From Azospirillum sp. B510 (GTDB lineage Bacteria > Pseudomonadota > Alphaproteobacteria > Azospirillales > Azospirillaceae), in contig NC_013858.1 of NCBI RefSeq assembly GCF_000010725.1, positions 124,001 through 188,000 on the forward strand: a stretch of 64,000 nt of DNA, given 5' to 3'. A program made the translations under genes and the position numbers. Positions within the stretch are counted from its first letter, which is position 1. Each line of letters begins with the position of its first letter. Below are positions 21,800 to 46,949 of the stretch, one piece after another. The notes under the pieces are model-generated. The model worked only from the letters and a program-made list of their open reading frames with translations. It made no database searches and was not told the origin of the DNA.

Positions 21800-21829
21800 T
21801 TGCCGCTTAAGCTGATATATTAGTATTCT
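21800..21829 (+). promoter_or_regulatory. gntR-1 promoter with the AT-rich GntR box
   Basis: TTGCCG (21800-21805), an 18-base spacer and TATTCT (21824-21829) form a sigma-70-like promoter. The box CTGATATATTAGTAT (21812-21826) overlaps the -10. It is 14/15 identical to the box upstream of kduI in reverse orientation, implying autoregulation of this GntR gene within the uronate regulon. Confidence 0.7.
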
Positions 21830-21860
21830 AAGGCATTCGCTTCTGAGGAGGCTGGACGCC

Positions 21861-22685
21861 ATGCCATCGGGCACCCCGCCGGCCAAAACCGGTTCCATCG
21901 CCGTCCCCTCGACACCGACCTCCCCCCAGGTGTCGGCCAGGACCGCTCCGCTCCAGGTCCGTCCGCCGGCACGGCGGGACATGCGACGCGGCCCGACCGC
22001 CGCCGATGCCATCCATCGCGATCTTCGGGCGGAGATCGTGTCGCTGAAACGCAAGCCGGGCGAGCCCATCGTCGAAAAGCAGATCGCCGAGGCCTATGGC
22101 GTCAGCCGCACCCCGGTGCGCGAGGCGGTGCTGCGGCTGGCCGACGAGGGGTTGATCGAGATCTTCCCGCAATCCGGCACCTTCGTCTCGCGCATTCCGC
22201 TGGAGGCGCTGCCGGAGGCCGGGGTGATCCGCAAGGTGCTGGAGCGGGCGACGGTGCGCTTCGCCGCCGAGCGCGCCACCCGCAGCCAGATCGCGGCGTT
22301 GCGCGCCTGCCTGGAACGCCAGCGCGAGGTCGATGGCGCCGGCGACGCCGACGGCTTCCATCAGGCCGACGAGGCCTTTCATGCCCAGATCACCGAGATG
22401 GCGGGCTATCCCGGCTTCTGGACGGTCATCCAGCAGGCCAAGGTTCAGCTCGACCGCTGCCGCCGGCTGACTCTGCCGGTGCCCGGCCGCATGCGCACCG
22501 TCATCGCCGAGCATGAGGCGATCGTCGACGCCATCGCCAGCCATGATCCGGATCGGGCCGAACAAAGCCTGGTCAGCCATCTCGACAATCTTCAGATCAC
22601 GGTGGACGACGTGCGCAACGCCGCCCCGCTCTATTTCTCCGGCAGCTTGGCCGACGATAGGGCTGTCGGGGCCGGCCCCCTGTGA
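21861..22685 (+). CDS. GntR-family (FCD domain) regulator, paralogue 1
   Basis: A 274-residue regulator: a variable N-terminal tail of about 50 residues, a winged HTH (EKQIAEAYGVSRTPVREAVL, then DEGLIEIFPQSGTFVSRIPL) and a C-terminal FCD effector domain with metal-binding residues (FHQADEAFHAQI and later His residues). It is highly similar to the regulators at 40664 and 46134, especially in the recognition helix, so all three probably read the same operator. FCD regulators of this type control uronate and related sugar-acid genes. GAGGAG lies 10 bases before ATG 21861. No catabolic gene is directly adjacent. Confidence 0.9.
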   Translation: MPSGTPPAKTGSIAVPSTPTSPQVSARTAPLQVRPPARRDMRRGPTAADAIHRDLRAEIVSLKRKPGEPIVEKQIAEAYGVSRTPVREAVLRLADEGLIEIFPQSGTFVSRIPLEALPEAGVIRKVLERATVRFAAERATRSQIAALRACLERQREVDGAGDADGFHQADEAFHAQITEMAGYPGFWTVIQQAKVQLDRCRRLTLPVPGRMRTVIAEHEAIVDAIASHDPDRAEQSLVSHLDNLQITVDDVRNAAPLYFSGSLADDRAVGAGPL

Positions 22686-22863
22686 CGGAAAGGCTTCATC
22701 CGCGGCCATCCCCGCTCACCGTTCCGCCAGGCCGGCAGCGCGGCCTTGCGGAATCCGTCACTTTGGCGTAAAGCGCCAGGACCAGGCCGGGCCCCTCTGG
22801 CAACCCTCACCGGTTGCGATGTCGGACTGGGAACATGAAGGAGCGGCCCGCGCCTCGTGCCCC

Positions 22864-22910
22864 TGACCGGGGGCTTCCGTCCGACGCCTTCGGCGCCACC
22901 CGACCGGTCA
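22864..22910 (+). promoter_or_regulatory. Structured leader hairpin upstream of the TerC gene
   Basis: TGACCGG (22864-22870) pairs with CCGGTCA (22904-22910), enclosing a GC-rich inner hairpin (GACGCCTTCGGCG region). It lies about 60 bases before the TerC start. TerC-family genes often have metal- or pH-responsive leaders (yybP-ykoY class), but I cannot match that consensus here, so it is reported only as structure. Confidence 0.35.
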
Positions 22911-22969
22911 GCACACCGCCGCGCGGTTCCTCCTCCCACATTCATCGTGACGTGAGGACTCGTGCCCAA

Positions 22970-23608
22970 ATGACCGAACTCTTTACCACCGAGGCGCTTG
23001 TCGCCCTGCTTCAGGTCATCATGATCGATCTGGTGCTGGCCGGCGACAACGCCATCGTCATCGGCCTCGCCGCCGCCGGGCTGCCGCGTGAACAGCGCGG
23101 CAAGGCGATCCTGATCGGCATCCTGGCCGCCACCGTGCTGCGCATCGCCTTCGCCGCCGTCACCGCCCAGCTGCTCCAGATCATCGGGCTGCTGCTGGCC
23201 GGCGGCGTGCTGCTGCTGTGGGTCTGCTGGAAGATGTGGCGCGAGCTGCGCCAGTCCCAGGACGAGGACGAGGCGGTCGCGGCGCTGGAGGAGGGGGGGG
23301 CCGACCAGGCCGGTTCGCGCAAGACGCTGGGGCAGGCGGTCTGGCAGATCGTCGTCGCCGACGTGTCGATGTCGCTCGACAATGTGCTGGCCGTCGCGGG
23401 TGCCGCGCGCGAGCATCTGGGGGTGCTGGTCATCGGCCTGACCCTGTCCATCGCCCTGATGGGGCTGGCCGCCAGCCTGATCGCCCGCATCCTGCACAGG
23501 CACCGCTGGCTGGCCTATGTCGGCCTCGCCATCATCCTCTATGTCGCCCTGCACATGATCTACCGCGGCGCCCTGGAAGTGTGGCCGCTGGTGAACGGCC
23601 ACGCCTGA
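22970..23608 (+). CDS. TerC-family integral membrane protein (YjbE type)
   Basis: A 212-residue protein with about six membrane helices. It carries the TerC signatures VIMIDLVLAGDNAIVIGLA (about residues 17-35) and VVADVSMSLDNVLAVAGAA (about 128-146), the two acidic intramembrane motifs typical of the family. Relatives export manganese or support metal loading of secreted proteins. An acidic cytoplasmic loop (SQDEDEAVAALEEGG) separates the two halves. ATG 22970 is used as the point where family similarity begins. A 12-bp-stem terminator follows. Confidence 0.9.
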   Translation: MTELFTTEALVALLQVIMIDLVLAGDNAIVIGLAAAGLPREQRGKAILIGILAATVLRIAFAAVTAQLLQIIGLLLAGGVLLLWVCWKMWRELRQSQDEDEAVAALEEGGADQAGSRKTLGQAVWQIVVADVSMSLDNVLAVAGAAREHLGVLVIGLTLSIALMGLAASLIARILHRHRWLAYVGLAIILYVALHMIYRGALEVWPLVNGHA

Positions 23609-23670
23609 ACCGCCGGCGGGACGATGCCGGCGCCAGGTTCGCGCTTCCTCGGCGACAGCTCTTCCGACTG

Positions 23671-23696
23671 GGCCATCGGGACGGGTCCCGATGGCC
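23671..23696 (+). terminator. Rho-independent terminator of the TerC gene
   Basis: GGCCATCGGGAC (23671-23682) pairs perfectly over 12 bp with GTCCCGATGGCC (23685-23696) across a 2-base gap, followed by TATTCTTT. This is the most canonical terminator in the window. Confidence 0.85.
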
Positions 23697-23994
23697 TATT
23701 CTTTATGCGCCGCGCGGTTCGCGGCGATCTCCGAATTGGAGGTAACCAACGCCGATCCTTCCCAATTGGGGAAAAAGAGTGGCAAGCCGGCCCAATGTAG
23801 CGGGACAGCCGGATGGCGTCTGAATCGAAAGAAACCGTACCCCTTTCGATGATCCGGAGAAAACAGGTCGCCCGGCCGGAGCGGAGGCGTCCCAAGGAAT
23901 GATGGGCTTATTGGATGTTGTTTGGTGGATATGATCCCGTACATGACGGAAAGCGGAAACGACTTCCAACAACTCCCCAGAAAGGGGCTTTTTC
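23697..23994. other. Spacer between TerC terminator and the RTX gene
   Basis: This stretch carries no credible gene. It contains scattered AT-richer sequence and two imperfect CCAATT/AATTGG elements near 23730-23780. The RTX gene promoter should lie here, but no confident site is seen. AAAGGGGCT lies just before the RTX start. Confidence 0.4.
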
Positions 23995-26571: not shown

Positions 26572-26588
26572 TCGGGAGGGGTAAAGCT

Positions 26589-26611
26589 CCCTCTCCCATT
26601 CCGGGAGAGGG
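26589..26611. repeat. Dispersed CCCTCTCCC palindrome copy
   Basis: CCCTCTCCC (26589-26597) and GGGAGAGGG (26603-26611) form a perfect 9-bp stem with a 5-base loop between the convergent stops of the RTX gene and hydA. It probably serves as a shared terminator. Confidence 0.8.
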
Positions 26612-26632
26612 AGGGAGAAGGGATTGGATTTC

Positions 26633-28854
<2,222 letters not shown>

Positions 28855-28867
28855 CGCTGTTGCTGTG

Positions 28868-28950
28868 CCCTCTCCCGCCTCTCGCACAAACTTCGTTTGT
28901 GCTGACGGCGTCAGGCGGATCGAAGATCCGCTGAGAGCCCCGGGAGAGGG
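28868..28950. repeat. Composite palindromic element with two nested hairpins
   Basis: The outer arms are the dispersed repeat: CCCTCTCCC (28868-28876) and GGGAGAGGG (28942-28950). Inside are two perfect hairpins, GCACAAAC/GTTTGTGC (28884-28902, TTC loop) and GCGGATC/GATCCGC (28915-28931, GAA loop). It occupies the whole gap between the carbamoylase stop and the tetR start within an operon. Confidence 0.75.
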
Positions 28951-28956
28951 AGAGTA

Positions 28957-30225
28957 TCACGCAGATGTTTTCACCTGCTCCGCCATCGCGTCGGCGCGGT
29001 CGAGCACGGCGTGCAGCAGCACCTCGCAGCCGGCGGTCGACCATTCCGGGGTCGTCTCCTCGATCTCATTGTGGCTGATGCCGTCGATGCAGGGGATGAA
29101 GACCATGCCCGTGGGCGCGACCTTCGACAGGTAGCAGGCGTCGTGCCCGGCCCCCGACACGATGTCGCGGAAGCTGTGGCCGGTGCGCTCCACCCCCTTG
29201 CGGACGGCGGCGACGCAGGCGGCGTCGAAGGCGATCGGGGCGTAGTACCAGATCTGCTTGAAATCGCTCTCCAACCCGATCTCCCCGGCGATGCGTTCCA
29301 CCTCGGTCCGCAGTTCGCCGTCCATGGCGGCGAGGATGCTGTCGTCGGGATGGCGGAAATCGACGGTGAAGAAGACCCGGCCGGGGATGACGTTGCGGCT
29401 GTTGGGATGGATCTGCATCAGCCCCACCGTGGCGCAGGCCAGCGGGCCGTATTTCAGGCCGATGCGGTTCACCGCATCCACCACGCGGGCGGCGCCCAGC
29501 AGGGCGTCCTTGCGGCGCACCATCGGGGTCGGGCCGGCATGGGCCTCCTGGCCGGTGAAGGTGATCTCGTACCAGCGCTGGCCCTGGCAATCGGTGACGA
29601 CGCCGATGGTCTTGCCCTCGGCCTCCAGGATCGGACCCTGTTCGATATGGGCCTCGAAATAGGCGCCGACCTTGCGCCCGCCGACCTCCCGATCGCCGGC
29701 ATAGCCGATGCGGGCCAGCTCGTCGCCCATCGTCTTGCCGTCGAGGTCGGCGCGCGACAGGCCGTAGTCCAGATCGAACACCCCGGCGAAGACGCCGGAC
29801 GCCACCATGGCCGGGGCGAAGCGCGACCCCTCCTCGTTGGTCCAGACCGCGACCTCCACCGGCGCCTCGGTGACATAGTTCATGTCGTTCAGGCTGCGCA
29901 CCACCTCCAGCCCGGCCAGCACGCCATAGACGCCGTCATATTTGCCGCCGGTCGGCTGGCTGTCGAGATGGCTGCCCATGATCACCGGGGGCAGACTGTC
30001 GTCGCGGCCGGGGCGGCGGGCGAAGATGTTGCCCATCTTGTCGACGGAGACCGTGCAGCCGGCCTCCTCGCACCAGCGCACGAACAGGTCGCGGCCCTGT
30101 TTGTCGAGGTCGGTCAGCGCCAGCCGGCACACGCCGCCCTTGGGCGTGGCGCCGATCCGCGCCATGTCCATCAGGCTCTGCCACAGGCGCGAGCCGTTCA
30201 CGGCGACATTCTGCGGGGTGGACAT
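28957..30225 (-). CDS. Zn-dependent N-carbamoyl-beta-amino-acid hydrolase (beta-ureidopropionase type)
   Basis: Releases beta-alanine (or beta-aminoisobutyrate), CO2 and ammonia from the carbamoyl product of hydA, step three of the pathway. It is 422 residues of the M20 hydantoinase/carbamoylase family, with metal-ligand motifs GSHLDSQPTGGKYDGVYG, TNEEGSRF, EAHIEQGPILE, GAGHDACYL and the C-terminal GISHNEIE. Family members also include allantoate and L-carbamoyl-amino-acid hydrolases; placement between preA and hydA decides the substrate. ATG 30225 is used. A 39-base gap separates it from preA. Confidence 0.9.
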   Translation of the reverse strand: MSTPQNVAVNGSRLWQSLMDMARIGATPKGGVCRLALTDLDKQGRDLFVRWCEEAGCTVSVDKMGNIFARRPGRDDSLPPVIMGSHLDSQPTGGKYDGVYGVLAGLEVVRSLNDMNYVTEAPVEVAVWTNEEGSRFAPAMVASGVFAGVFDLDYGLSRADLDGKTMGDELARIGYAGDREVGGRKVGAYFEAHIEQGPILEAEGKTIGVVTDCQGQRWYEITFTGQEAHAGPTPMVRRKDALLGAARVVDAVNRIGLKYGPLACATVGLMQIHPNSRNVIPGRVFFTVDFRHPDDSILAAMDGELRTEVERIAGEIGLESDFKQIWYYAPIAFDAACVAAVRKGVERTGHSFRDIVSGAGHDACYLSKVAPTGMVFIPCIDGISHNEIEETTPEWSTAGCEVLLHAVLDRADAMAEQVKTSA

Positions 30226-30264
30226 GTTGCTCTCTCCTGAACGTCGTTCTTGTTCGGCGGCTGA

Positions 30265-31548: not shown

Positions 31549-31565
31549 GATGTGGCTCCCTTTCC

Positions 31566-37250: not shown

Positions 37251-38774
37251 TCACATGACCGCTCCCATCTGCCAAGGCGCGAATTCATCGGCGCCGACGC
37301 CGAGTTCCTCGCTCTTGGTCTTGCGGCCCGACGCGGTGTCGAGCACCAGCTGGAAGATGGCGCGGCCGACCTCCTCGATCGAGGCGTCGCCGGTGGCGAT
37401 GGCGCCGCAATCGATGTCCATGTCGTCCGGCATCCGGCGGAACAGCGTGCTGTTGGTCGCCAGCTTCAGGCTGGGCGTCGGCTTGCAGCCGAAGACCGAG
37501 CCGCGGCCGGTGGTGAAGCACAGCACGTTGGCGCCGCCCGCCACCTGCCCCGTCGCCGACACCGGGTCGTAGCCGGGGGTGTCCATGAAGACGAAGCCCT
37601 TGTCGGCGATCGGCTCGGCATAGCGGTAGACGGCGGTCAGCGGGGTGGTGCCGCCCTTGGCGACCGCGCCCAGCGACTTCTCCAGGATGGTGGTCAGGCC
37701 GCCCTTCTTGTTGCCGGGCGACGGGTTGTTGTTCATCTCCCCGCCGGTGCGGCTGGTGTAGTCCTCCCACCAGCCGATGCGCTCGACCAGCGCCTCGCCG
37801 ACCTCGCGGCGGACGGCGCGGCGGGTCAGCAGATGCTCGGCGCCATAGACCTCCGGCGTCTCGCTCAGCACCGCGGTGCCGCCGTTGCGCACCAGCAGGT
37901 CGACGGCGTAGCCCAGCGCCGGGTTGGCGGTGATGCCCGAATAGCCGTCGGAGCCGCCGCATTGCAGCGCCAGCGTCAAATGGCTGGCCGGCAGGGGCTG
38001 GCGGGTGACGTCGTTGATCTCCGGCAGCAGCGCCTCGATCCGGCGGATGCCCTCGCGGGCCGCCGCCGCGGTGCCGCCCATATCCTGGATGCCGATGGGG
38101 ATGACGCGGGCGCCCGCCTCGAGCCTGGTGGCCTCCATCAGCTTGTCGATCTGGTTCACCTCGCAGCCGAGGCCGAGCAGGATCACCGCGGCGAAGTTCG
38201 GATGGCGGGCGTAGCCGGCGATGGTGCGGCGCAGCGTGTCCATCACCTCGCCGCTGCCGGCCATGCCGCAGCCATAGCCGTGGGTCAGGGCGACGACGCC
38301 GTCGATGTTGGGGTAGGCGGCCAGCGCGGAGCCGCGGAAATGGTCGGCGATCATCCGCGCCGCGGTGGCGGAGCAGTTCACCGAGGTCAGCACGCCGATG
38401 TAGTTGCGGGTGGCGACGCGGCCGTCGGCGCGCAGGATGCCCTGGAAGGTGGCGCGCTCGGCCTCCGGGATCGGCTCGACCGGGTGGACGTCGGCGCCGA
38501 AGGCGTAATCGCGCTCGAAATCGTCGCCCATGCCCATGTTGTGGACATGGACATGCTCGCCGGGCTGGATCGCCGTGGTGGCGAAGCCGATGACCTGATT
38601 GTATTTGCGCACCGGCTCGCCGGGCGCGATGGCGCGCACCGCGACCTTGTGCCCGGCAGGCACCGGTCCGGCGGTCGCCAGGTCAGTACCGGGCAGGGCG
38701 GTGCCGGGCTCCAGATCGGCGCCGGTGACGACGACATTGTCGGCGGGGTGCAGGCGGATGGTCAGCGATGCCAT
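37251..38774 (-). CDS. uxaA: Altronate dehydratase
   Basis: Converts D-altronate to KDG. It is 507 residues, full-length UxaA with an N-terminal SAF domain (about 1-100; VHVHNMGMGDDF) and the catalytic C-terminal domain (RNYIGVLTSVNCSATAARMI, ALTHGYGCGMAG, LQCGGSDGYSGITANPALG, SETPEVYGAEHLL). Cys and His metal-ligand positions are present. ATG 38774 starts MASLTIRLHPADN. It lies after uxaC, but a structured repeat fills the 192-base gap. A galactarate dehydratase is the main alternative. Tagaturonate reductase (uxaB), which would make altronate, is not in the window. Confidence 0.92.
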   Translation of the reverse strand: MASLTIRLHPADNVVVTGADLEPGTALPGTDLATAGPVPAGHKVAVRAIAPGEPVRKYNQVIGFATTAIQPGEHVHVHNMGMGDDFERDYAFGADVHPVEPIPEAERATFQGILRADGRVATRNYIGVLTSVNCSATAARMIADHFRGSALAAYPNIDGVVALTHGYGCGMAGSGEVMDTLRRTIAGYARHPNFAAVILLGLGCEVNQIDKLMEATRLEAGARVIPIGIQDMGGTAAAAREGIRRIEALLPEINDVTRQPLPASHLTLALQCGGSDGYSGITANPALGYAVDLLVRNGGTAVLSETPEVYGAEHLLTRRAVRREVGEALVERIGWWEDYTSRTGGEMNNNPSPGNKKGGLTTILEKSLGAVAKGGTTPLTAVYRYAEPIADKGFVFMDTPGYDPVSATGQVAGGANVLCFTTGRGSVFGCKPTPSLKLATNSTLFRRMPDDMDIDCGAIATGDASIEEVGRAIFQLVLDTASGRKTKSEELGVGADEFAPWQMGAVM

Positions 38775-38801
38775 GGGCAGATGTCCTTGAGACCAGATGT
38801 T

Positions 38802-38953
38802 CCCTCTCCCGTCCCGGGAGAGGGAGGGGACCCGCCGAAGGCGGGGAGGGTGAGGGGTAGGGCAAAAATCCAGAACCGCATGGTTCCTTGGATCACCCCT
38901 CACCCTTCCCATACTGCGCATGGGCCCCTTCCCTCTCCCGGGGCGGGAGAGGG
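38802..38953. repeat. Composite inverted-repeat element between uxaC and uxaA
   Basis: Two perfect copies of the CCCTCTCCC/GGGAGAGGG palindrome (38802-38824 and 38931-38953) flank complementary GGGAGGGTGAGGGGT-like and ACCCCTCACCC arms, so the whole 150 bases can fold on itself. Such elements within an operon often alter mRNA stability. Confidence 0.75.
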
Positions 38954-38966
38954 GGGATTCAACCAA

Positions 38967-40367
38967 TCAAAGCTTGTAGGCGGTCTTGGCGAGGCGGTAG
39001 GCGAGGTCGACCGCCAGTTCCGCCGCCTCGTCCTCCTCCAGCCGGTGTTCGGCGACCAGACGGGCGAGGAAGCCGCAATCGACGCGGCGCGACACGTCGT
39101 GGCGGGCCGGGATCGAGCAGAAGGCGCGGGTGTCGTCGTTGAAGCCCACCGTGTTGTAGAAGCCGGCGGTCTCGGTGATCATCTCGCGGTAGCGGCGCAT
39201 GCCCTCGGGGCTGTCGTGGAACCACCAGGCCGGGCCGACGCGCAACGCCGGGTAATGGCCGGCCAGCGGCGCCAGCTCGCGGGAATAGCTGTCCTCGTCC
39301 AGCGTGAACAGGATGATGGTCAGGTCGCGTTCGTTGCCGAAACGGTCGAGCAGCGGCTTCAGCGCCCGCACATATTCGGTGCCGCTCGGGATGTCGGCGC
39401 CCTTGTCGCGGCCGAAGCGCTCGAACACCAGGCTGTTGTGGTTGCGGAAGCTGCCGGGATGGATCTGCATGACCAGACCGTCCTCCAGGCTCATCCGCGC
39501 CATTTCGGTCAGCATCTGGGCGCGGAACAGCTCCGCCTCCTCGGCGGTGGCGCCGCCGCGACGGACGATGTCGAACAGCGTCCCGGCCTCGGCGCGGGCC
39601 AGGTCGGCGGTCGCCGCCGTCGGGTGGCCATGGTCGGTCGAGGTGGCGCCGTGGCTCTTGAAATACAGGCGGCGGTCGGCGAGCGCCGCGAGATAGCCGT
39701 CCCAGGTCGCGGTGTCCTGTCCGGTGATGCGGCCCAGCTCGGCGAGGTTGTCGCGGAAGCCCTCGAACTCCGGATCGACGACCGGATCGGGACGGAAGGC
39801 GGTGATGACCCGGCCCTTCCAGCTGCTCTCGCGGATCGCCTTGTGGTGGACCAGCGGGTCGAGCGGCGATTCGGTGGTCGCCAGCACTTCCAGGTTGAAG
39901 CGCTCGAACAGGGCGCGCGGGCGGAATTCCGGCTTGCCCAGGCACGCCTCGATCTGGTCATAGATGCGGTCGGCGCTGGCCGCACTCAGCCGCTCGGTGA
40001 CGCCGAACACCGTCTCGAAGGCATGGGTCAGCCACATCGAGGTCGGCGTGCCGCGGAACAGGTGCCAGTTGGAGGCCAGCAGGCGCCAGATGGCGCGCGA
40101 ATCGGTCGAGGTCTCCCCGCCATCCTTGCGCGGAACGCCGAGCTGCTCCAGCGGAATTCCCTGGCTGTACAGCATGCGGAAGGCATAATGATCGGGCTTG
40201 ACGAACAGGCTCGCCGGGTCGGGGAACGCCTCGTCCTTCGCGAACCAGGACGGATCGGTGTGGCCGTGCGGGCTGATGATCGGCAGGGCGCTGACCTCGC
40301 CATACAGGCGCCGCGCGATGGCGCGCTGGGTCGGGTCGCTCGGGAACAGACGGTCGGGGTGAAGCAT
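38967..40367 (-). CDS. uxaC: Uronate isomerase
   Basis: Isomerises glucuronate to fructuronate and galacturonate to tagaturonate. It is 466 residues of amidohydrolase fold with metal motif ISPHGHTDPSWF (about residue 35) and the family segments TWLLASNWHLF-like, TTESPLDPLVHH, ITAFRPDPVVDPEF and MQIHPGSFRNHN. ATG 40367 is used. First gene of the uxaC-uxaA-transporter-kdgK block; the promoter with a GntR box sits about 90 bases upstream and a GntR regulator is divergent. Confidence 0.94.
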   Translation of the reverse strand: MLHPDRLFPSDPTQRAIARRLYGEVSALPIISPHGHTDPSWFAKDEAFPDPASLFVKPDHYAFRMLYSQGIPLEQLGVPRKDGGETSTDSRAIWRLLASNWHLFRGTPTSMWLTHAFETVFGVTERLSAASADRIYDQIEACLGKPEFRPRALFERFNLEVLATTESPLDPLVHHKAIRESSWKGRVITAFRPDPVVDPEFEGFRDNLAELGRITGQDTATWDGYLAALADRRLYFKSHGATSTDHGHPTAATADLARAEAGTLFDIVRRGGATAEEAELFRAQMLTEMARMSLEDGLVMQIHPGSFRNHNSLVFERFGRDKGADIPSGTEYVRALKPLLDRFGNERDLTIILFTLDEDSYSRELAPLAGHYPALRVGPAWWFHDSPEGMRRYREMITETAGFYNTVGFNDDTRAFCSIPARHDVSRRVDCGFLARLVAEHRLEEDEAAELAVDLAYRLAKTAYKL

Positions 40368-40454
40368 CGGAAGCCTCTACGCTGCAAAAAGGGGTCAAGC
40401 AGGGTGGGGAAAAGGCGGGGTCCGTGCGGGGGACCGTCCCTACCGGCTGGCTGT

Positions 40455-40484
40455 ATAATATTAATATATTAGATTCGATTGCAA
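40455..40484 (-). promoter_or_regulatory. uxaC promoter with the GntR box
   Basis: On the minus strand TTGCAA (40484-40479), an 18-base spacer and TATTAT (40460-40455). The spacer holds the ATATATTAG box (plus strand TTAATATATTAGATT at 40461-40475). The layout equals that of the kduI and gntR-1 promoters. It also lies between uxaC and the divergent gntR-2, so both may be controlled. Confidence 0.72.
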
Positions 40485-40663
40485 GCCCAATCCCTCTCCC
40501 GGAGCGGCTCCGGCACCCGGAAAGGCTGCGCCCAGTCGCCGCACCCGGTTCCCGCGGCGGGCCGGGGATGGATTTGACCTTGATGAAGGGTGACGATTAG
40601 ATTGCGGGGTATGACGAACATCACCGGGATGACGGAGCGCCGTCTCCCGACCCGCCTGCCGGA

Positions 40664-41446
40664 ATGGAGCCATCGGTGAAGAAGGTCGCGACGAGTGTGG
40701 ATGAGGGCGGCCTGGACGCCGAGCCCGTGCGCCGCGCCGTGGTTCCGGCGGCGACGGTCCGTCCGCCGCGCCGCGCCGCCACCGTGGCCGCGCGCATCTA
40801 CCGCGATTTGCGGGCGGAGATCGTGTCGCTGAAGCGCAAGCCCGGCGACGCCATCGCCGAGAAGCAGATCGCCGAATCCTATGGCGTCAGCCGCACCCCG
40901 GTGCGCGAGGCGGTGCTGAAGCTGGCGGATGAGGGGCTGATCGAGATCTTCCCGCAATCCGGCACCTTCGTCGCCCGCATCCCGCTCGACGCCCTGCCGG
41001 AGGCCTTCGCCATCCGCAAGGCGCTGGAGGAGGCGACGGTGCGCTATGCCGCGACGCGGGCGACGCGCAGTCAGATCGCGGCACTGCGGGCCAATCTGGA
41101 ATTGCAGCGGGAGATGCAGGAGGCCGCCGATTTCGCCGGCTTCCACCAGGCCGACGAGGCGTTCCACGCGTTGGTGGCGGAGATCGCCGGCTATCCCGGA
41201 TTCTGGACGCTGATCCAGCAGACCAAGGTCCAGATCGACCGCTACCGCCTGCTGACCCTGCCGGTCCTGGGCCGCGTCGCCGAGGTGATCGCCGAGCATA
41301 CCGCCATCGTCGATGCGATCGCGGCCAAGGATCCGGCGGCGGCGATCGGGGCGCTGGACGAACATCTGGACGATCTCCAGATCTCGGTCCCCGACATCCG
41401 CCGCGACTATCCGCGCTATTTCACCGCGCCGGGCGACCCGGTTTAA
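40664..41446 (+). CDS. GntR-family (FCD domain) regulator, paralogue 2
   Basis: A 260-residue regulator: winged HTH (EKQIAESYGVSRTPVREAVL, DEGLIEIFPQSGTFVARIPL) and FCD domain (FHQADEAFHALVAEIAGYPGFW, His residues in the later helices). It is divergent from uxaC across a 296-base spacer holding the AT-rich box, so it is the best candidate for the local uronate repressor. It is very similar to the regulators at 21861 and 46134. ATG 40664 is used; GTG 40676 is an in-frame alternative. Confidence 0.9.
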   Translation: MEPSVKKVATSVDEGGLDAEPVRRAVVPAATVRPPRRAATVAARIYRDLRAEIVSLKRKPGDAIAEKQIAESYGVSRTPVREAVLKLADEGLIEIFPQSGTFVARIPLDALPEAFAIRKALEEATVRYAATRATRSQIAALRANLELQREMQEAADFAGFHQADEAFHALVAEIAGYPGFWTLIQQTKVQIDRYRLLTLPVLGRVAEVIAEHTAIVDAIAAKDPAAAIGALDEHLDDLQISVPDIRRDYPRYFTAPGDPV

Positions 41447-41715
41447 GGGAGGATCGCTCCACCGCGGCCTTCGAGGCCCGCGTTCGCCGGGAACCGCCGC
41501 TCAGGTGCCGAGGGTTTTCCGGTACTCCGCGACGGGAAGACCGCCAACCCCCCAACCCCCCAATCCTCCATATCCACCTCGTCGATGACGACGAAGGTGG
41601 TCGCGGGGGTCTTGTCCAGCACCTCCACCAGAAGACCGGTCACGCCCCTGATGAGTTCGGCCTTCTGGTCCGGCGTCGCGCCTTCGCGGGTGATCTTGAT
41701 GTTCACATACGGCAT
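41443..41715 (-). pseudogene. 4-oxalocrotonate tautomerase family protein, C-terminus frameshifted
   Basis: The first 57 residues are a normal tautomerase: MPYVNIKITREGATPDQKAE with catalytic Pro after the Met, the DKTPATTFVVIDEV segment and DWGVGG. After that the frame reads unrelated sequence to residue 90. An 8-bp unit AACCCCCC is tandemly duplicated at 41546-41561; removing one copy restores GGLPVAEYRKTLGT and a stop at 41501, giving 68 residues, the usual family length. So the gene carries a slippage-type duplication. It is the third gene after gst and an NTF2-like gene. The enzyme core may still fold. Confidence 0.8.
41546..41561. repeat. Tandem 8-bp duplication in the tautomerase gene
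   Basis: AACCCCCC occurs twice in direct tandem (41546-41553, 41554-41561), each with a C6 run. It is the exact cause of the frameshift. Confidence 0.9.
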
Positions 41716-41727
41716 ATCGATCGCAAC

Positions 41728-42105
41728 CTAAGGTTGGCGTTCGATGATCTGAAAAACCTTGGCGATGATCCGCCACCGGCCATCCGTGCGCACCAGGGTG
41801 AGGAAATCGACGAAATCGCGCTGGCCGATCGAACAGCGCACGCGGGCGGCCGCGGTGTTTTCGCCGGCCAGATCGATGGCGTCGATATGGTCGCGTCGAG
41901 CCTCGTTGCGCGAGGCCGGCGACTGGCGGGCGGCGATGACCTGCACATAGTCTTCCATGGTGCGATAAAGCAGCGGTGTCTCGTCGGCGGTCGCGTAGAT
42001 CGCCTTCGGGTGAAAGACGGCCTGAAGCTTGTCGACGTCGCAGAAATGAAGCGCGTCGAAATAGTCGCGGAGGACGTCGGCGATGTCGTTCAGGATCCGG
42101 GTCAT
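41728..42105 (-). CDS. NTF2-like (SnoaL/DUF4440 type) protein
   Basis: A 125-residue cone-shaped NTF2-fold protein: an opening helix (ILNDIADVLRDYFDALHFCD), VFHPKAIYATADETPLL, then beta strands ending DGRWRIIAKVFQIIER. Such proteins are often small enzymes or binding modules with nuclear-transport-factor-2 fold. ATG 42105 overlaps the gst stop as ATGA, so translation is coupled. The stop lies 12 bases before the tautomerase start, and the three form one operon of likely detoxification function. Confidence 0.82.
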   Translation of the reverse strand: MTRILNDIADVLRDYFDALHFCDVDKLQAVFHPKAIYATADETPLLYRTMEDYVQVIAARQSPASRNEARRDHIDAIDLAGENTAAARVRCSIGQRDFVDFLTLVRTDGRWRIIAKVFQIIERQP

Positions 42106-42743
42106 TCCGCCGCCTCTTCCGCGATCTTGTCGGTGATCAGCCCTTCCCGACGCATGGCGTCGCGAACGGATGGCCGGGTGGCGATGCGCGTCACATAGGC
42201 CGCGACATGCGGCCAGCGGGCAAGATCGAGCCCGATGAAACCCGACCAGTTCAGGACGACGAACAGATACGCGTCCGCCACGGTGAAGCCGCCGCCGAGG
42301 ATGAAGTCCCGGCCATCGGCAAGGCCACGCTCCACATCTCCCACGCGCCGGGCCAAGCGCCCTTCGACCTGTTCCTTTTCCGCCTCTCCGAGCGGATATC
42401 CCCTGAAATAGGGGCTGAATGACTTGTGCAGCTCGGACGAGGTGAAGTTGAGCCATTCCTGCAGGCGCGCACGCTCCACAGTGCCATAGGCAGGTGCCAG
42501 AGCCGCCTGGGGATGGCCGTCGGCGAGAAATTGAAGGATCGCCGGGTTCTCGGTCAGAACGGAGCCATCATCCAGTTCGAGGGCCGGCACATAGCCCTTG
42601 GGATTGACGGCGTGATAGGCGTCCCCGGTTTCGGTCAGGCCGGTTTCGGTGTCGACCCGGATGGCATCATGAGCCAGTCCGATCTCGATAAGCGCGATCC
42701 GCGACGACAGCGAGCAGGAGCCGGGTTTGAAGTAGAGCCGCAC
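42102..42743 (-). CDS. gst: Glutathione S-transferase, beta-class-like
   Basis: A 213-residue GST. The N-terminal thioredoxin-like domain begins MRLYFKPGSCSLSSRIALIE, with the Cys10/Ser11 pair typical of bacterial beta-class enzymes, followed by the GSH-binding VPALELDDGSVLTENPAIL (about residues 52-70) and a helical C-terminal domain with FTVADAYLFVVLNW. It conjugates or reduces electrophiles with glutathione. First gene of gst-NTF2-tautomerase, divergent from an HxlR regulator. Confidence 0.93.
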   Translation of the reverse strand: MRLYFKPGSCSLSSRIALIEIGLAHDAIRVDTETGLTETGDAYHAVNPKGYVPALELDDGSVLTENPAILQFLADGHPQAALAPAYGTVERARLQEWLNFTSSELHKSFSPYFRGYPLGEAEKEQVEGRLARRVGDVERGLADGRDFILGGGFTVADAYLFVVLNWSGFIGLDLARWPHVAAYVTRIATRPSVRDAMRREGLITDKIAEEAAE

Positions 42744-42787
42744 GGAAGCCTCCTTGATTGTGGGGATGGCCGGACTCTATGGAGCGG

Positions 42788-42849
42788 AGTTACCCTTGCC
42801 AATCAAGTTTCCATCGGTTACTTCGTATTCAGGTTTCCCCGCAGTAACC
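42788..42849. promoter_or_regulatory. GTTACT/AGTAAC repeats between gst and hxlR
   Basis: GGTTACT (42816-42822) and AGTAACC (42843-42849) are a perfect 7-bp inverted repeat, with a related AGTTACC at 42788-42794. They fill the divergent promoter region and are candidate sites for the HxlR regulator. Confidence 0.5.
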
Positions 42850-42860
42850 TGATCGCGCCC

Positions 42861-43229
42861 ATGAGCTTGAAAGTCCGGAAGAACCGAAGCGCGCCTCCGC
42901 CGCAGACCTGCGCTTTGACCGAGTGCATGGCGGTCATCGCCGGAGCCTGGGCGCCGAACGTCATCTGGCACCTGCGTGCCGGTCCAAGGCGATTCAGCGA
43001 GTTGCGCCTCGACATCCCGCCGATTTCGGCCAAGGTGCTGTCGCAGCGGCTGCGTGAACTGGAAAGCCGCGGCGTCATCACCCGCAGCGTCCAACCAACG
43101 ACGCCGCCTTCGGTGGAATATACCCTTACGCCCCTCGGCCAGGAACTGGTGCCGGCCCTCGATGCCATCGTCGAGGTTGGCCACAAGCTCAAGGCCATTG
43201 CACGGCAACAGGGGGCGAGCGGCGGTTGA
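42861..43229 (+). CDS. HxlR-family transcriptional regulator
   Basis: A 122-residue winged-HTH protein: CALTECMAVIAGAWAPNVIWHL, RFSELRLDIPPISAKVLSQRLRELESRGVI and the wing VEYTLTPLGQEL. HxlR proteins typically respond to aldehydes, quinones or redox stress through an N-terminal Cys; here Cys lies at about residue 17 in QTCALTEC. ATG 42861 is used. It is divergent from the gst operon, which it most likely controls. Confidence 0.9.
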   Translation: MSLKVRKNRSAPPPQTCALTECMAVIAGAWAPNVIWHLRAGPRRFSELRLDIPPISAKVLSQRLRELESRGVITRSVQPTTPPSVEYTLTPLGQELVPALDAIVEVGHKLKAIARQQGASGG

Positions 43230-43355
43230 ACGATCGGCCACCGGGACAAAGAGCACCCTCGGGGTGCTCGCGACAATCGCAAGGCGGCGATTTCCAGGAC
43301 GCGGTCCGCTTTGGACGAGCGGAGCGTGCGGGGGCACTCATTCAGAAGGGCGGCG

Positions 43356-43718
43356 TCAGGCCGAGGGGGCGTCGGCCGCCGGCTCGCCGAGGAAATCCTC
43401 GCGGATCGGCGTGAAGATGTCGAGCAGCACGCCCGGTTCCAGCGCCACCACCCCATGCAGGACATTGGACGGCACCATATAGCCGTCGCCCTCGTTCAGG
43501 CGCCGGGTGCGGCCGTCGATGGTGACGTCGAAGGACCCCTTCTCCACCACGGCGGACTGGACATGGGGATGGCGGTGCTGCGCGCCGATGGCGCCGGCCT
43601 CGAACTCCACCCGCACCATCATCATCATGTCGTTGTGGCCGAGGATCCTGCGGCGCACCCCGCCGCCCAGATCCTGCCACGGGATCTCGCCGGCGGTCAC
43701 GAACATGCCCGTGGCCAT
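43356..43718 (-). CDS. kdgF: Cupin protein, KdgF-like
   Basis: A 120-residue single cupin. It begins with FVTAGEIPWQDLGGGVRRRILGHND and has the metal motif GAQHRHPHVQSAVVEKG (two His and the Glu), both typical of KdgF. KdgF linearises 4,5-unsaturated uronates (from pectin or alginate) to 4-deoxy-5-keto-uronate, the substrate of KduI. It lies directly downstream of kduI-kduD, which supports the assignment. ATG 43718 is used. Confidence 0.87.
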   Translation of the reverse strand: MATGMFVTAGEIPWQDLGGGVRRRILGHNDMMMMVRVEFEAGAIGAQHRHPHVQSAVVEKGSFDVTIDGRTRRLNEGDGYMVPSNVLHGVVALEPGVLLDIFTPIREDFLGEPAADAPSA

Positions 43719-43740
43719 CTCTGCCCCCCTCCCTGTCGAC

Positions 43741-43761
43741 CCCCCTTCCCCAAGAAGGGGG
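43741..43761 (-). terminator. Hairpin between kduD and kdgF
   Basis: CCCCCTT (43741-43747) pairs with AAGGGGG (43755-43761) across a 7-base loop, in the short gap between kduD and kdgF. It may attenuate or stabilise the transcript rather than end it. Confidence 0.45.
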
Positions 43762-43773
43762 TGTTGTTTCGGA

Positions 43774-44571
43774 TCAGCGCGCCAGCCAGCCGCCATCGAC
43801 CGGCAGGATGGTGCCGTGGACATAGTCCGAGGCGTCGGAGGCCAGGAACACCGCCGGGCCGGCCAGGTCCGCCGGCAGGCTCCAGCGCCCGGCCGGGATG
43901 CGGGCCAGGATCTCGGCGCTGCGCTTCTCGTCGGCGCGCAGGGCCGTGGTGTTGTTGGTCTCGACATAGCCCGGCGCGATGGCGTTCACATTGATGCCCT
44001 TGCCCGCCCATTCGCAGGCCAGGAGCTTGGTGAGGCCGGCGACGCCGCTCTTGGACGCCGTGTAGGACGGCACCCGGATGCCGCCCTGGAAGGACAGCAT
44101 CGACGCGATGTTGATGATCTTGCCCTTGGCCTCGCTCTTGCCCCCGCCCTCGGCGGGCTGGCCCCGCGCCTGGCGGTCGAAGACGTGACGGCCGAAGGCC
44201 TGGCACAGGAAGAAGGTCGACTTGAGGTTGACCGTCATCACCTCGTCCCAATCGGCCTCGGTGAAGTCGACGGACTCGGCGCGGCGGATGATGCCGGCAT
44301 TGTTGACCAGGATGTCGACCTGGCCCAGCCCGGCGATCGCCTCCGCCATGATGCGGGGGATCGGCTCGATGCTGGTGAAGTCGGCGGCGATGGAGACGAA
44401 GCGCCGGCCGGTCTCCTCCACCAGCGCCCGGGTCTCGTCGGGCGGGGTGCGGCCGGCGACCGCGACATCGGCGCCGGCCCGCGCCAGCGCCACGGCGATG
44501 GCCTGCCCGATGCCGGTATTGGCGCCGGTGACCAGCGCCGTCCGGCCGGAAAGATCGAAGGGGTTGATCAT
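43774..44571 (-). CDS. kduD: 2-dehydro-3-deoxy-D-gluconate 5-dehydrogenase (KduD)
   Basis: Oxidoreductase that turns 2,5-diketo-3-deoxygluconate (the KduI product) into KDG. It is 265 residues of SDR fold: ALVTGANTGIGQAIAVAL, NNAGIIRRAE, and the KduD-like active site IASMLSFQGGIRVPSYTASKSG. An insertion of about 15 residues (QARGQPAEGGGKSEAKG) before IINIAS is unusual. ATG 44571 (MINPFDLSG) has AAGGA about 11 bases upstream; ATG 44583 is in frame but lies too close to it. It follows kduI by 15 bases. Confidence 0.92.
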   Translation of the reverse strand: MINPFDLSGRTALVTGANTGIGQAIAVALARAGADVAVAGRTPPDETRALVEETGRRFVSIAADFTSIEPIPRIMAEAIAGLGQVDILVNNAGIIRRAESVDFTEADWDEVMTVNLKSTFFLCQAFGRHVFDRQARGQPAEGGGKSEAKGKIINIASMLSFQGGIRVPSYTASKSGVAGLTKLLACEWAGKGINVNAIAPGYVETNNTTALRADEKRSAEILARIPAGRWSLPADLAGPAVFLASDASDYVHGTILPVDGGWLAR

Positions 44572-44586
44572 GGTGGCGGGCATCCT

Positions 44587-45423
44587 TCAGCGCAGGCGGT
44601 CGATGGCGACGAAGTCCATGTCGGTGAAGTCCTGGTTGTCGCCACCCATCGCCCAGATGAAGCTGTAGTTGCGGGTGCCGACGCCGGAATGGATCGACCA
44701 GGGCGGGGAGATCACCGCCTGCTCGTTGGCGACGACGATATGGCGGGTCTGCTCCGGCTCGCCCATCAGATGGATGACGCGGGCATCGTCCGGCAGGTCG
44801 AAATAGAAATACACCTCGCAGCGCCGGTCATGGGTGTGGCACGGCATGGTATTCCACATGTTGTTCGGCTTCAGCACCGTCAGGCCCAGCACCAGCTGCG
44901 CCGTGCGCACCACGTCCGGGTGGATGATCTGGTGGATGGTGCGCTCGTTCGACTGGGCCGGATCGCCCATATGCACCGCCTTGGCCTGGCCGATCGAGAT
45001 CCTCATCGTCTCGAACCGGGCATGGGCGGGGGTGCTGTTCAGGTAGAATTTGGCCGGCTCGCGGCGGTCCAGGCTTTCGAAGGCGACGTCCTTGCTGCCC
45101 ATCGCGACATAGAGGGCGTCGCGCGGCGCCAACTCGTACACCGCGCCATCGACCGTCACCCGGCCGGCGCCACCGACATTGACCACGCCCAGCTCGCGCC
45201 GGTCGAGGAAGTTCGGCGAGCCGATCTCCTTGGACGACTCCAGCCTGACCGGGCCGGCGACCGGCATGGCGCCGCCGACGACGAAGCGGTCGACCTGGCT
45301 GTAGGTGAAGACCGTCTCGTCCGCCTCGAACAGGGTGGGGACCAGGAAATGGTCGCGCAGGGTCCCGGTGTCGAAGCCGCGCACCGCATCGGGGTGGGAG
45401 GCGTGCCGGACGGAGATCTTCAT
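44587..45423 (-). CDS. kduI: 4-deoxy-L-threo-5-hexosulose-uronate ketol-isomerase
   Basis: Isomerises 4-deoxy-5-keto-uronate to 2,5-diketo-3-deoxygluconate. It is 278 residues, exactly the E. coli length. The cupin zinc-site motif MPCHTHDRRCEVYFYF (about residues 193-208) and a late His near PPWSIHSGVGT are intact. ATG 45423 starts MKISVRHASHPDAV. First gene of kduI-kduD-kdgF, with its own GntR-box promoter (45479-45508); divergent from mgsA. Confidence 0.95.
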   Translation of the reverse strand: MKISVRHASHPDAVRGFDTGTLRDHFLVPTLFEADETVFTYSQVDRFVVGGAMPVAGPVRLESSKEIGSPNFLDRRELGVVNVGGAGRVTVDGAVYELAPRDALYVAMGSKDVAFESLDRREPAKFYLNSTPAHARFETMRISIGQAKAVHMGDPAQSNERTIHQIIHPDVVRTAQLVLGLTVLKPNNMWNTMPCHTHDRRCEVYFYFDLPDDARVIHLMGEPEQTRHIVVANEQAVISPPWSIHSGVGTRNYSFIWAMGGDNQDFTDMDFVAIDRLR

Positions 45424-45478
45424 GGCGGAGGTCCTTCGGAACTGTGCGGCGCCGGGGCGGCCGGCGTGATCCGGCGCC

Positions 45479-45508
45479 ATAATACTAATATACCAGTAAG
45501 CCGGGCAA
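45479..45508 (-). promoter_or_regulatory. kduI promoter with the GntR box
   Basis: Minus strand: TTGCCC (45508-45503), 18 bases, TATTAT (45484-45479). The box CTGGTATATTAGTAT (plus-strand 45482-45496) abuts and overlaps the -10, differing by one base from the gntR-1 box. AT-rich sequence in a GC-rich context makes this stand out. Confidence 0.78.
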
Positions 45509-45616
45509 GGACTTATGGTTGAGGTCGGGACATTTCACCGGACGGAGGGTGCGACAAAGTCGTCCGCGATGGATGGGGGCGCGGCCATGGCTGGCGGCGC
45601 GTTGCGTTGCACGCTG

Positions 45617-45629
45617 TAGTAATATACTA
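45617..45629 (+). promoter_or_regulatory. GntR-type palindrome upstream of mgsA
   Basis: TAGTAATATACTA is a perfect palindrome (TAGTA-ATA-TACTA). In reverse orientation CTAGTATATTACTAC matches the kduI/gntR-1 box at 12 of 15 bases. It lies 30 bases before the mgsA start, where a TTGCGT (45602-45607) upstream could be a -35. Confidence 0.65.
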
Positions 45630-45659
45630 GGGAGCGGTCCTTGACCGGAGTGTCCGTCC

Positions 45660-46121
45660 ATGACCAGCCAGCAGACGAGCGGCCCGCAATCCCGCAAGCG
45701 CATCGCCCTTGTCGCCCACGATGCCCGCAAGGCGGATCTCATCGCCTGGATCGGCGCCAACATCGGGGTGCTGGACGGTCACGCCTTCTGGGCGACCGGC
45801 ACCACCGGCAAGAAGGTGAAGGATGCCCATCCCGGCCTGGAGGTGACGCCGCTGAAGAGCGGCCCGCTGGGCGGCGACCAGCAGATCGGCGCGATGATCG
45901 CCGAGGGGCGGATCGACCTGCTGGTCTTCTTCGTCGATCCGATGACCGCCCAGCCGCATGATGTGGACGTGAAGGCGCTGACCCGGCTGGCGACGCTCTA
46001 CAACATCCCAATGGCCTGCAACGAGGCCACCGCCGACATGATCGTCTCCTCCGCCCATTTCGCCAGCGGCTACGCCCCGCGCGCCACCAGCTTCACCGAC
46101 TATGAGACGCGCAAGGTCTGA
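45660..46121 (+). CDS. mgsA: Methylglyoxal synthase
   Basis: Converts dihydroxyacetone phosphate to methylglyoxal and phosphate. It is 153 residues with [16 protein letters not shown] at the start, TGTTGKK phosphate loop, [16 protein letters not shown] and the catalytic [18 protein letters not shown]. The length equals E. coli MgsA (152). It is divergent from kduI with a GntR-type box of its own, and convergent with gntR-3. The location in a uronate locus suggests a safety valve when KDPG-derived triose phosphate accumulates; that link is inference. Confidence 0.95.
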
Positions 46122-46133
46122 ACCGATCGCGCT

Positions 46134-46925
46134 CTACGCCGTGAAATACTGCGGATAGCTGCGCTGGACGTCGGCGATGCCCAGTTGCAGGTCGGTCAAA
46201 TGGTGGCGCAGTTCGCCGACGGCGCGGTCGGGGTCGCGGGCGGCGACGGCCTCGACGATGGCGGCATGCTCGCCCAGCGCCTTGTCCATCCGCCCGGCCG
46301 CCGGCAGCGTCAGATGGCGGTAGCGGTCGACCTGCCGCTTGACCTGCTGGGTCACCGCCCAGAAGCCGGGATAGCCGGAGATCTCGGCCAGCAGCGCGTG
46401 GAACGCCTCGTCGGCCTCGTGGAAGCCGTCGAGAGCGCCGGCCTCCTTCATCTCGCGCTGAAGCTCCAGATTGGCGCGCAGCCGGGCGATCTGGCTGCCG
46501 GTCGCCTGTTCGGCGGCATAGCGCACCGTCGCCTCCTCCAGCGCGCGGCGGATGACGATGGCCTCCGGCAGGGCGCTGACGGGGATGCGGGCGACGAAGG
46601 TGCCGGACTGCGGGAACACCTCGACCAGACCTTCGTCGGCCAGCTTCAGCATCGCCTCGCGCACGGGGGTGCGGCTGACGCCATAGCTCTCCGCCACCTC
46701 CTTCTCGATCACCGGCTCGCCCGGCTTGCGGCGCAGGGAAACGATGTCGTCGCGCAGATCGCGATAGATGGCGCCCGACACGGTGGCGCCGCGACTGGCG
46801 GGCCTTGCGCTGGCGCTGGCGGGCTGGCGGCGCCGGCGGCGGCGCGCCGGTGCGGCCACCCTGTTCGAATCGCCCGCGTTGGAATCCATGCTCGTCCCAT
46901 TCATCTCGTGGGCGGCCGGTACCAT
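46134..46925 (-). CDS. GntR-family (FCD domain) regulator, paralogue 3
   Basis: A 263-residue regulator: an Arg-rich disordered N-terminus (PARRRRRRQPAS), winged HTH (EKEVAESYGVSRTPVREAML, DEGLVEVFPQSGTFVARIPV) and FCD domain (FHEADEAFHALLAEISGYPGFW). It resembles the regulators at 21861 and 40664. Starts at 46925, 46904 or 46889 are possible; none has a strong Shine-Dalgarno. Its own upstream sequence (46935-46949) carries the AT-rich box. It is convergent with mgsA, stops 12 bases apart. Confidence 0.88.
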   Translation of the reverse strand: MVPAAHEMNGTSMDSNAGDSNRVAAPARRRRRRQPASASARPASRGATVSGAIYRDLRDDIVSLRRKPGEPVIEKEVAESYGVSRTPVREAMLKLADEGLVEVFPQSGTFVARIPVSALPEAIVIRRALEEATVRYAAEQATGSQIARLRANLELQREMKEAGALDGFHEADEAFHALLAEISGYPGFWAVTQQVKRQVDRYRHLTLPAAGRMDKALGEHAAIVEAVAARDPDRAVGELRHHLTDLQLGIADVQRSYPQYFTA

Positions 46926-46934
46926 CGGCCCTGA

Positions 46935-46949
46935 GCGCTAATATATCGC
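46935..46949. promoter_or_regulatory. GntR box upstream of gntR-3
   Basis: GCGCTAATATATCGC; reverse complement GCGATATATTAGCGC contains the shared ATATATTAG core. AGCG and CGCT flanks make it palindromic. It lies 10 bases from the start, so bound protein would block transcription or initiation. I see no clean -35/-10 pair. Confidence 0.6.

Follow-up and report, generated by a model that had tools for sequence, protein, structure and literature searches.

Genes and Operator-Like Sites at the Locus

The 64,000-nucleotide stretch of Azospirillum sp. B510 analyzed here (hereafter the window; C5:124001-188000 of a 7.6 Mb, seven-contig genome, with C, L, and G numbers as our labels for contigs, loci, and genomes) encodes three paralogous FCD-domain GntR regulators (gntR-1, gntR-2, and gntR-3), the uronate catabolism proteins UxaC and KduI, and the methylglyoxal synthase MgsA. 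Pfam and NCBIfam models agreed with the names given to these genes in a preliminary description of the sequence and additionally identified KduD (Table 1). An AT-rich box, evaluated below as a putative operator of the three regulators, recurs at five intergenic sites among these genes, and all five lie where that description had placed them. The best plasmid match to positions 38900-47000 is a plasmid of Azospirillum lipoferum 4B (95% coverage, 89.1% identity).

With up to one mismatch, the 9-mer ATATATTAG occurs eight times in the window against an expectation of 0.30 ± 0.59, and none of 100 shuffled sequences reached eight. The five sites had been described as sharing one core, which holds for four of them: these are forms of a single degenerate palindrome, TRRTATAYYA, with TGATATATTA at 21813, TAATATATTA at 40462, TAATATACCA at 45486, and TAATATACTA at 45620 (the fuller form of the box is near ATACTAATATATTAGTAT). 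The site before gntR-3 is asymmetric and departs from this core; its sequence in the direction of the gene is AGCGATATATTAG. As had been noted, 14 of 15 positions agree between the gntR-1 site (CTGATATATTAGTAT) and the kduI site taken as its reverse complement (CTGGTATATTAGTAT). All five sites are kept in the aligned relatives of the A. lipoferum group: the kduI and mgsA boxes in 15/15 rows, and GATATATTAG before gntR-3 in 14/14 (the longer AGCGATATATTAG in 13/14), within intergenic DNA that has otherwise diverged. Two pairs of aligned rows, L105/L128 and L106/L126, apparently represent the same strains.

Table 1. Features of the locus and of the putative regulon. Positions without a contig label are those of the window.
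Feature	Position	Strand	Basis or remark
Putative operator CTGATATATTAG, gntR-1 promoter spacer	21812-21823	+	Box before 10/10 lipoferum-group GntR1 genes (L122, L124, L125, L147, L149, L150, L152-L154, L156)
Putative operator TTAATATATTAG, uxaC promoter spacer, uxaC/gntR-2 intergenic region	40461-40472		Box upstream of GntR2 in 11/11 lipoferum-group loci (L119-L129)
Putative operator CTAATATACCAG, kduI promoter spacer	45485-45496		Conserved in aligned rows, two of which repeat a strain
Putative operator GTAATATACTAG upstream of mgsA	45619-45630		Conserved in aligned rows
Asymmetric operator-like site AGCGATATATTAG upstream of gntR-3	46938-46950	-	GATATATTAG conserved in aligned rows
Predicted gntR-1 promoter, TTGCCG-N18-TATTCT	21800-21829	+	TTGCCG 21800-21805, TATTCT 21824-21829
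Predicted uxaC promoter, TTGCAA-N18-TATTAT	40455-40484	-	Elements 40479-40484 and 40455-40460
Predicted kduI promoter, TTGCCC-N18-TATTAT	45479-45508	-	Elements 45503-45508 and 45479-45484
gntR-1, FCD-domain GntR regulator, 274 aa	21861-22685	+	PF07729, PF00392 above cut-off
kdgK-like 2-dehydro-3-deoxygluconokinase, in uxaC-uxaA direction, putative operon	35216-36136	-	NF052444 386.7 bits, just below cut-off of 400; PfkB
EamA-type transporter, between kdgK and uxaA	36181-37044	-	PF00892
uxaA-like altronate/galactarate dehydratase	37251-38774	-	PF20629, PF04295, SAF on the longer open reading frame 37251-38966; TIGR03248 406.7 bits, below cut-off of 730.85
uxaC, glucuronate isomerase	38967-40367	-	NF002794 599.2 bits, cut-off 387
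gntR-2, FCD-domain GntR regulator, 260 aa	40664-41446	+	PF00392, PF07729 above cut-off; nearest chain of solved structure, judged by sequence, 7u5q_A (E 6.4e-59)
kduD, 2-dehydro-3-deoxy-D-gluconate 5-dehydrogenase	43774-44583	-	TIGR01832 393.8 bits, cut-off 338.85
kduI, 5-dehydro-4-deoxy-D-glucuronate isomerase	44587-45480	-	NF002091 439.5 bits, cut-off 250; start by codon usage may be 45423
mgsA, methylglyoxal synthase	45660-46121	+	NF003559 195.8 bits, cut-off 84
gntR-3, FCD-domain GntR regulator, 263 aa	46134-46925	-	PF00392, PF07729 above cut-off
UxaB, tagaturonate reductase	C4		NF002969 600 bits, cut-off 359
Pyruvate:ferredoxin oxidoreductase (PFOR/nifJ)			TIGR02176
MFS transporter			Putative box target
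Chemotaxis protein			Called gene at palindrome loci
Phosphotransacetylase (enoyl-CoA hydratase fusion), acetate kinase behind			Putative box target
Aldose-1-epimerase, galM type, pyruvate kinase behind			Below NCBIfam galM cut-offs
Aldo-keto reductase			NF007388, L-glyceraldehyde 3-phosphate reductase
RNA-like element with intrinsic terminator	G000:C4:555216-555315 (L022 17217-17316)		
Palindromes without assigned target	C1:297616, C2:349075, C2:783092, C3:312665, C3:515241, C4:416828		

Related Sites on Other Contigs

The preliminary description had proposed a single network, and a shared operator-like box indeed links the GntR genes, uronate catabolism, and mgsA; its extent was incomplete, as the box on contigs C2 to C5 also precedes uxaB, the pyruvate:ferredoxin oxidoreductase (PFOR) gene, an MFS transporter gene, pta-ackA, galM, and an aldo-keto reductase (AKR) gene. 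Twelve palindromes stand at the targets described here: four in the window, five within 6.7 kb of C4 (549159-555868), and one each at C3:345434, C2:1176845, and C5:565611. The isomerase pathway of uronate breakdown is divided between contigs, with uxaC, uxaA, and kdgK on C5 and uxaB on C4; the box joins both parts and is found at uxaC, uxaB, kduI, and galM. The occurrence of the same putative operator at PFOR, pta-ackA, AKR, and galM with the pyruvate kinase gene offers a possible reason for the presence of mgsA among uronate genes, namely that these genes may serve the outflow of uronate-derived pyruvate and triose phosphate.

A survey of other Azospirillum genomes that was anchored on the motif, and is thus biased, added genes for phosphoenolpyruvate (PEP) carboxylase, a TRAP solute-binding protein, TRAP DctQ/DctM, KduD, a MocR-type regulator, and a cytochrome P450. 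In six A. brasilense-type loci (L193, L196, L197, L199, L202, and L208), the box lies 265-267 bp upstream of the called start of PEP carboxylase, and the adjoining MocR-type or P450 gene has another box. Between the PFOR and MFS genes of A. lipoferum 4B plasmid AZO_p3 (L396 1826-1924), an entry is annotated as 'TLA beta-lactamase'; it looks like a prediction artefact because it is only 99 bp long.

Conservation and Promoter Layout

Conservation was assessed at loci anchored on proteins rather than on the motif, by scanning 400 bp upstream for the box and for its reversed pattern. The box was found upstream of galM in 28/30 loci, AKR in 30/30, pta in 29/30, PFOR in 16/20, uxaB in 18/30, and the GntR clade genes in 60/97, where each set of 30 is limited to the best of the matching loci, the PFOR scan covers L306-L325 with the partial matches L326-L335 left out, and the GntR3 of L127 is excluded from the 97 for its short upstream DNA. 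The reversed pattern occurred in none of these sets (0/97 for the clade, 0/30 each for galM, AKR, pta, and uxaB, and 0/20 for PFOR). Nine of the 12 uxaB genes without their own box (L387-L395) lie directly behind galM on the same strand; six of these nine galM genes were scanned, and all six have the box.

The promoter pattern TTGCNN-N18-TATTNT that had been reported at gntR-1, uxaC, and kduI is exact at each of the three, and the box fills the spacer in each. The gap between TTGC and the palindromic 10-mer is 9 nt at these three genes and at mgsA, uxaB, and the MFS gene, 10 nt at pta, and 8 nt at galM. A -10-like hexamer directly follows the box at gntR-1, uxaC, kduI, uxaB, the MFS gene, galM, and pta, while mgsA has no clear one; among the galM rows L246-L261, the order TTGC, box, TATAAT is present in 14 of 16. 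Repression is the natural reading of this layout, since a dimer bound in the spacer would block RNA polymerase.

Regulators and Proposed Operator Recognition

The three regulators share 57-65% identity overall and 63-71% in their FCD domains, and PF00392 and PF07729 both score above cut-off in all three, which places them among the FCD-domain GntR proteins (FadR subfamily). Their recognition helices, previously described as nearly identical, are 87-93% identical, and their wings 83-92%. They fall far below the cut-offs of the equivalog models for UxuR (NF007588; 43.1, 39.9, and 39 bits against a cut-off of 442) and ExuR (NF008571; 38, 40.6, and 24.4 bits against 396), and by these thresholds they belong to neither family. 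The clade and the box occur together: the box precedes the regulator's own gene in Azospirillum, and it is found at the orthologous gene in 14/14 Bradyrhizobium loci, although in L185 it lies 31 bp inside the tblastn match. In L170, the sole Bradyrhizobium locus with annotated neighbors, a TRAP solute-binding protein gene follows. Within the genus, TAATATATTA is present in 29/32 genomes that have a clade regulator of >60% identity and in 0/5 without one (Fisher 1.3e-4), a comparison for which the 60% cut was picked after seeing the data and genomes G061-G068 were left out.

Canonical operators of the FadR subfamily have a GT and an AC box separated by 2 or 3 nt, and Arg at helix-turn-helix (HTH) position 28 and Gly at position 59 go with the G/C of TKGT/ACMA (PMC4494728). 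The Azospirillum box has the 2-nt geometry, but its GT/AC positions are mostly AT/AT, and it falls outside the canonical TKGT/ACMA class; this says nothing on the protein fold because the subfamily has exceptions such as BioR. After rows with stops or shorter than 180 aa were dropped, 92 clade proteins were aligned to E. coli FadR. All 92 have Gln in the slot of Gly66, within the wing, and none has Arg in the slot of Arg35, where 78 have Lys and 14 have Thr, Ala, or Ser. The winged HTH was readable in 11 of the 22 FCD loci of the B510 genome, and among these 11 proteins, Gln at the Gly66 slot is found only in the three window paralogs. These residues fit a change of operator from TGGT to TAAT, if FadR Arg35 and Gly66 correspond to HTH positions 28 and 59 as we infer. 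A canonical site, TGGTATACCA, lies at C2:1224893 (L032 4894). It stands 0.54 kb upstream of the place where another regulator, which keeps Arg at the base-reading slot, has its FCD-domain match (C2:1225432). The same genome may thus provide a natural contrast for a residue-level hypothesis of operator change in this clade.

In a tree of 96 rows, GntR-1 falls into one lineage together with genes of the A. brasilense type, the forks having unstarred supports of 92/93 and 87/71, and the GntR-1 paralog is therefore probably old.

Candidate Small RNA Gene

Behind the box at C4:555202 come a near-invariant block of 60-70 nt and an intrinsic terminator, which together span about 100 nt. This block is found in 15/45 genus genomes, and the box stands at all 15 full copies; a second, partial copy in G066 (L245) was missed by the box-scan anchor. 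No Rfam family matched at gathering score in L022, L213, and L216, which carry the element. Fold z-scores are -4.3, -3.6, and -3.2 in three examples. The 5′ structure is without covariation support, because only two of the 30 pairs show compensatory changes, and both of these belong to the terminator stem. A coding function was rejected as unlikely, because rows differ by a 1-nt indel within the otherwise near-invariant body. With its conserved box and terminator, the element is apparently an undescribed candidate small RNA (sRNA) gene.

An unpaired GUUCCUCUCGG stretch in the element suggests an anti-Shine-Dalgarno seed. When this stretch was screened against 172 gene starts of the B510 genome, the result was hardly better than with shuffled seeds; the best duplex (-26.6 kcal/mol, L029:8067-8537) is stronger than any obtained with 20 shuffled seeds, although the strongest of these reached -25.7. 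Small RNAs of A. brasilense Sp245 are the subject of another study (PMC7685610), and a search of open-licence PMC papers found none that combined Azospirillum lipoferum, sRNA, and regulon.

Evidence for an Operator and Alternative Explanations

Taken together, the box is very probably the operator of a clade of FCD-GntR (FadR-subfamily) repressors governing a uronate-to-pyruvate regulon, with three paralogs in this genome. The case is carried by position and conservation, as the motif is not significant by number alone: the whole genome holds six matches to ATATATTAG and 23 to TRRTATAYYA, and the reversed controls also give 6 and 23, respectively. Enrichment of the exact 9-mer, and likewise of the degenerate palindrome, was accordingly rejected as proof. 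Three of the six exact 9-mers lie within the 25 kb that hold the five sites, and the sixth (C3:167521) is outside any TRRTATAYYA palindrome, with a called gene (L037:2983-4224, minus strand) about 0.3 kb downstream of it. For the strict form TAATATATTA, the B510 genome gives four matches against one for the control, and the 45 genomes of the genus give 118 against 8 (37/45 against 7/45 genomes). A binding site of the FNR type was ruled out by spacing, as the FNR motif is TTGAT-N4-ATCAA.

Several observations besides the equal genome counts weigh against this operator. Whether the motif is common before unrelated genes could be answered in part: of the 23 palindromes, the 12 at described targets are accompanied by five canonical TGGTATACCA sites and six without an assigned target. 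In other genomes, single sites precede unrelated genes (YagK/Rep-like in L190, RNB ribonuclease in L191) or no clear gene, the latter in L195, L201, L211, L212, L214, L220, L224, and L229. No exact box is found at 37 of the 97 clade genes. These comprise ten gntR-3 rows (the asymmetric form is the best match in nine), eight A. brasilense-type GntR2 rows with one mismatch, 17 rows of the GntR1 type (a single mismatch in one of them, at least two in the other 16), an Inquilinus row with one mismatch, and a Skermanella ortholog with two, although the latter adjoins DctP, KduI, and SDR genes. The divergent gene pair of L135 has one common box that was counted twice. The spacing also deviates at PFOR (5 nt from TTGC) and the RNA gene (16 nt), and the AKR gap of 10 nt is from the B510 genome, with TTGC not kept in the orthologs. 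Moreover, the genomes compared are close relatives, and some assemblies are in both collections. As a separate observation, L229 (G020:C1) has two boxes 147 bp apart, at 3501 and 3648, with no clear downstream called gene, which is possibly another unannotated target.

The AT-rich palindrome could instead belong to the core promoter itself, as an extended -10 region, without any dedicated operator. In favor of this reading, the box adjoins or overlaps -10 elements, GC-rich genomes are expected to have AT-rich promoters, and the raw counts equal the reversed control. The reading is extremely unlikely, given that the reversed pattern, which has the same composition, is missing from every upstream set, that the palindrome persists at varied offsets from TTGC (5, 8-10, and 16 nt) or without a conserved TTGC, and that it marks a functionally coherent gene set. 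If the box is an operator, it might be read by another transcription factor, with the three GntRs as mere targets; candidates are a LacI-family gene beside uxaB (L022:8066-9130) and a fourth FCD regulator near pta (L026:8252-8914). We consider this very unlikely, because the box is kept at the clade gene in all 14 Bradyrhizobium loci, neither candidate gene has a TRRTATAYYA site of its own (L022, L026), and the fourth FCD protein has different residues, Gln and Arg, at the base-reading positions.

The mode of action is less certain, and the presence of the box in several layouts would be compatible with GntRs that are activators or dual regulators at some sites (PFOR, the RNA gene, and AKR) and repressors only at spacer sites. 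Such a division seems unlikely, since none of eight layouts has the box upstream of the -35 element, where a class I/II activator is expected, the PFOR and AKR promoters being undefined. As for the RNA-like element, its position just downstream of an MFS gene, as seen in an initial alignment of six genomes, raises the idea of a 3′ untranslated region or terminator element of that gene rather than an independent RNA gene. This has little probability, as each of the 15 genomes provides the element with its own box. In A. ramasamyi, it is located between nifJ and a HAD hydrolase gene, where there is no room for an MFS gene on the nifJ side, no MFS gene is listed, and no feature is annotated beneath (the plasmid gene tables are incomplete); the blastn match there covers box and element only.

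Proposed Regulatory Circuit

The box, read as a repressor operator, probably acts as the switch of a single common circuit, because it is conserved in most of the Azospirillum genomes searched and marks genes for the use of uronic acids from plant cell walls, pyruvate genes, regulator genes, and the candidate RNA gene. A mechanism can be extrapolated from the observed sites, conservation, gene context, clade co-occurrence, and layout to binding, repression, inducer, paralog roles, operon extents, and RNA transcription. A clade dimer bound between the -35 and -10 elements would exclude RNA polymerase until a uronate-derived metabolite released it. The genes then expressed would be those for uronate uptake and the isomerase pathway (galM, uxaC, uxaB, uxaA, kdgK, kduID, and the MFS transporter), those for the outflow of three-carbon compounds and acetyl-CoA (the pyruvate kinase behind galM, PFOR/nifJ, pta-ackA, mgsA, and AKR), the regulator genes, and the small RNA gene.

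A more elaborate, two-layer circuit can be proposed tentatively, with a chance that falls somewhat short of even. The clade, its operator having moved from TGGT/ACCA to TAAT/ATTA, would be insulated from the canonical FCD operators of the same genome and would control uptake, catabolism, and the outflow through pyruvate, acetyl-phosphate, and methylglyoxal, while the new small RNA, with its anti-Shine-Dalgarno-like loop, would adjust other mRNAs upon the arrival of plant uronate. With the analysis as a whole, a motif spotted by hand has become a testable multi-contig regulon in a plant-growth bacterial genus.

Other Features of the Window

A terC RNA (Rfam RF03067, 51.2 bits, gathering score 39.9) is located at 22779-22834 on the plus strand, between gntR-1 and a TerC-family gene at 22970. 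Between gntR-1 and the uxa cluster, a minus-strand block (26633-32888) resembles reductive pyrimidine breakdown and includes an amidohydrolase, a TetR_C_3 regulator, an M20 peptidase family member, a DHO_dh/Fer4 protein, and a Fer4_20/pyridine-nucleotide oxidoreductase.

Comparison With Known Systems

The putative regulon resembles that of UxuR/ExuR, the hexuronate repressors of gammaproteobacteria, in its FCD-GntR fold, paralogous regulators, and uronate genes, and the UxuR operator has the same 2-nt center as this box (PMC4494728). It differs in the operator half (TAAT/ATTA instead of TKGT/ACMA) and in scoring only 24-43 bits with the NCBIfam models, far below their cut-offs. The putative Azospirillum targets also include PFOR, pta-ackA, mgsA, AKR, and a candidate RNA gene, a difference that applies to UxuR/ExuR as compared here, since their reach to such genes was not looked up. 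BioR is an alphaproteobacterial FadR-subfamily regulator with an AT-rich palindrome, TTATMKATAA, off the common consensus (PMC4494728; PMC4554459). The Azospirillum palindrome differs from it, and its targets are uronate genes, whereas those of BioR are biotin genes. With BioR as a precedent, the kind of operator is known and the variant is new; a search of open-licence PMC papers found none that paired GntR with TAATATATTA.

Like conventional sugar-responsive sRNAs, the candidate RNA would be a standalone transcript some 100 nt long that has an intrinsic terminator, an unpaired CU-rich stretch, and a sugar-responsive promoter, but unlike them, it has no Rfam family at gathering score. The expression of this conserved element should follow uronate. 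In pectinolytic enterobacteria, KdgR, a regulator of the IclR family, joins the genes of uronate catabolism and lower glycolysis under one regulator. The circuit proposed for Azospirillum would work alike, although its protein family and operator are unrelated to those of KdgR.

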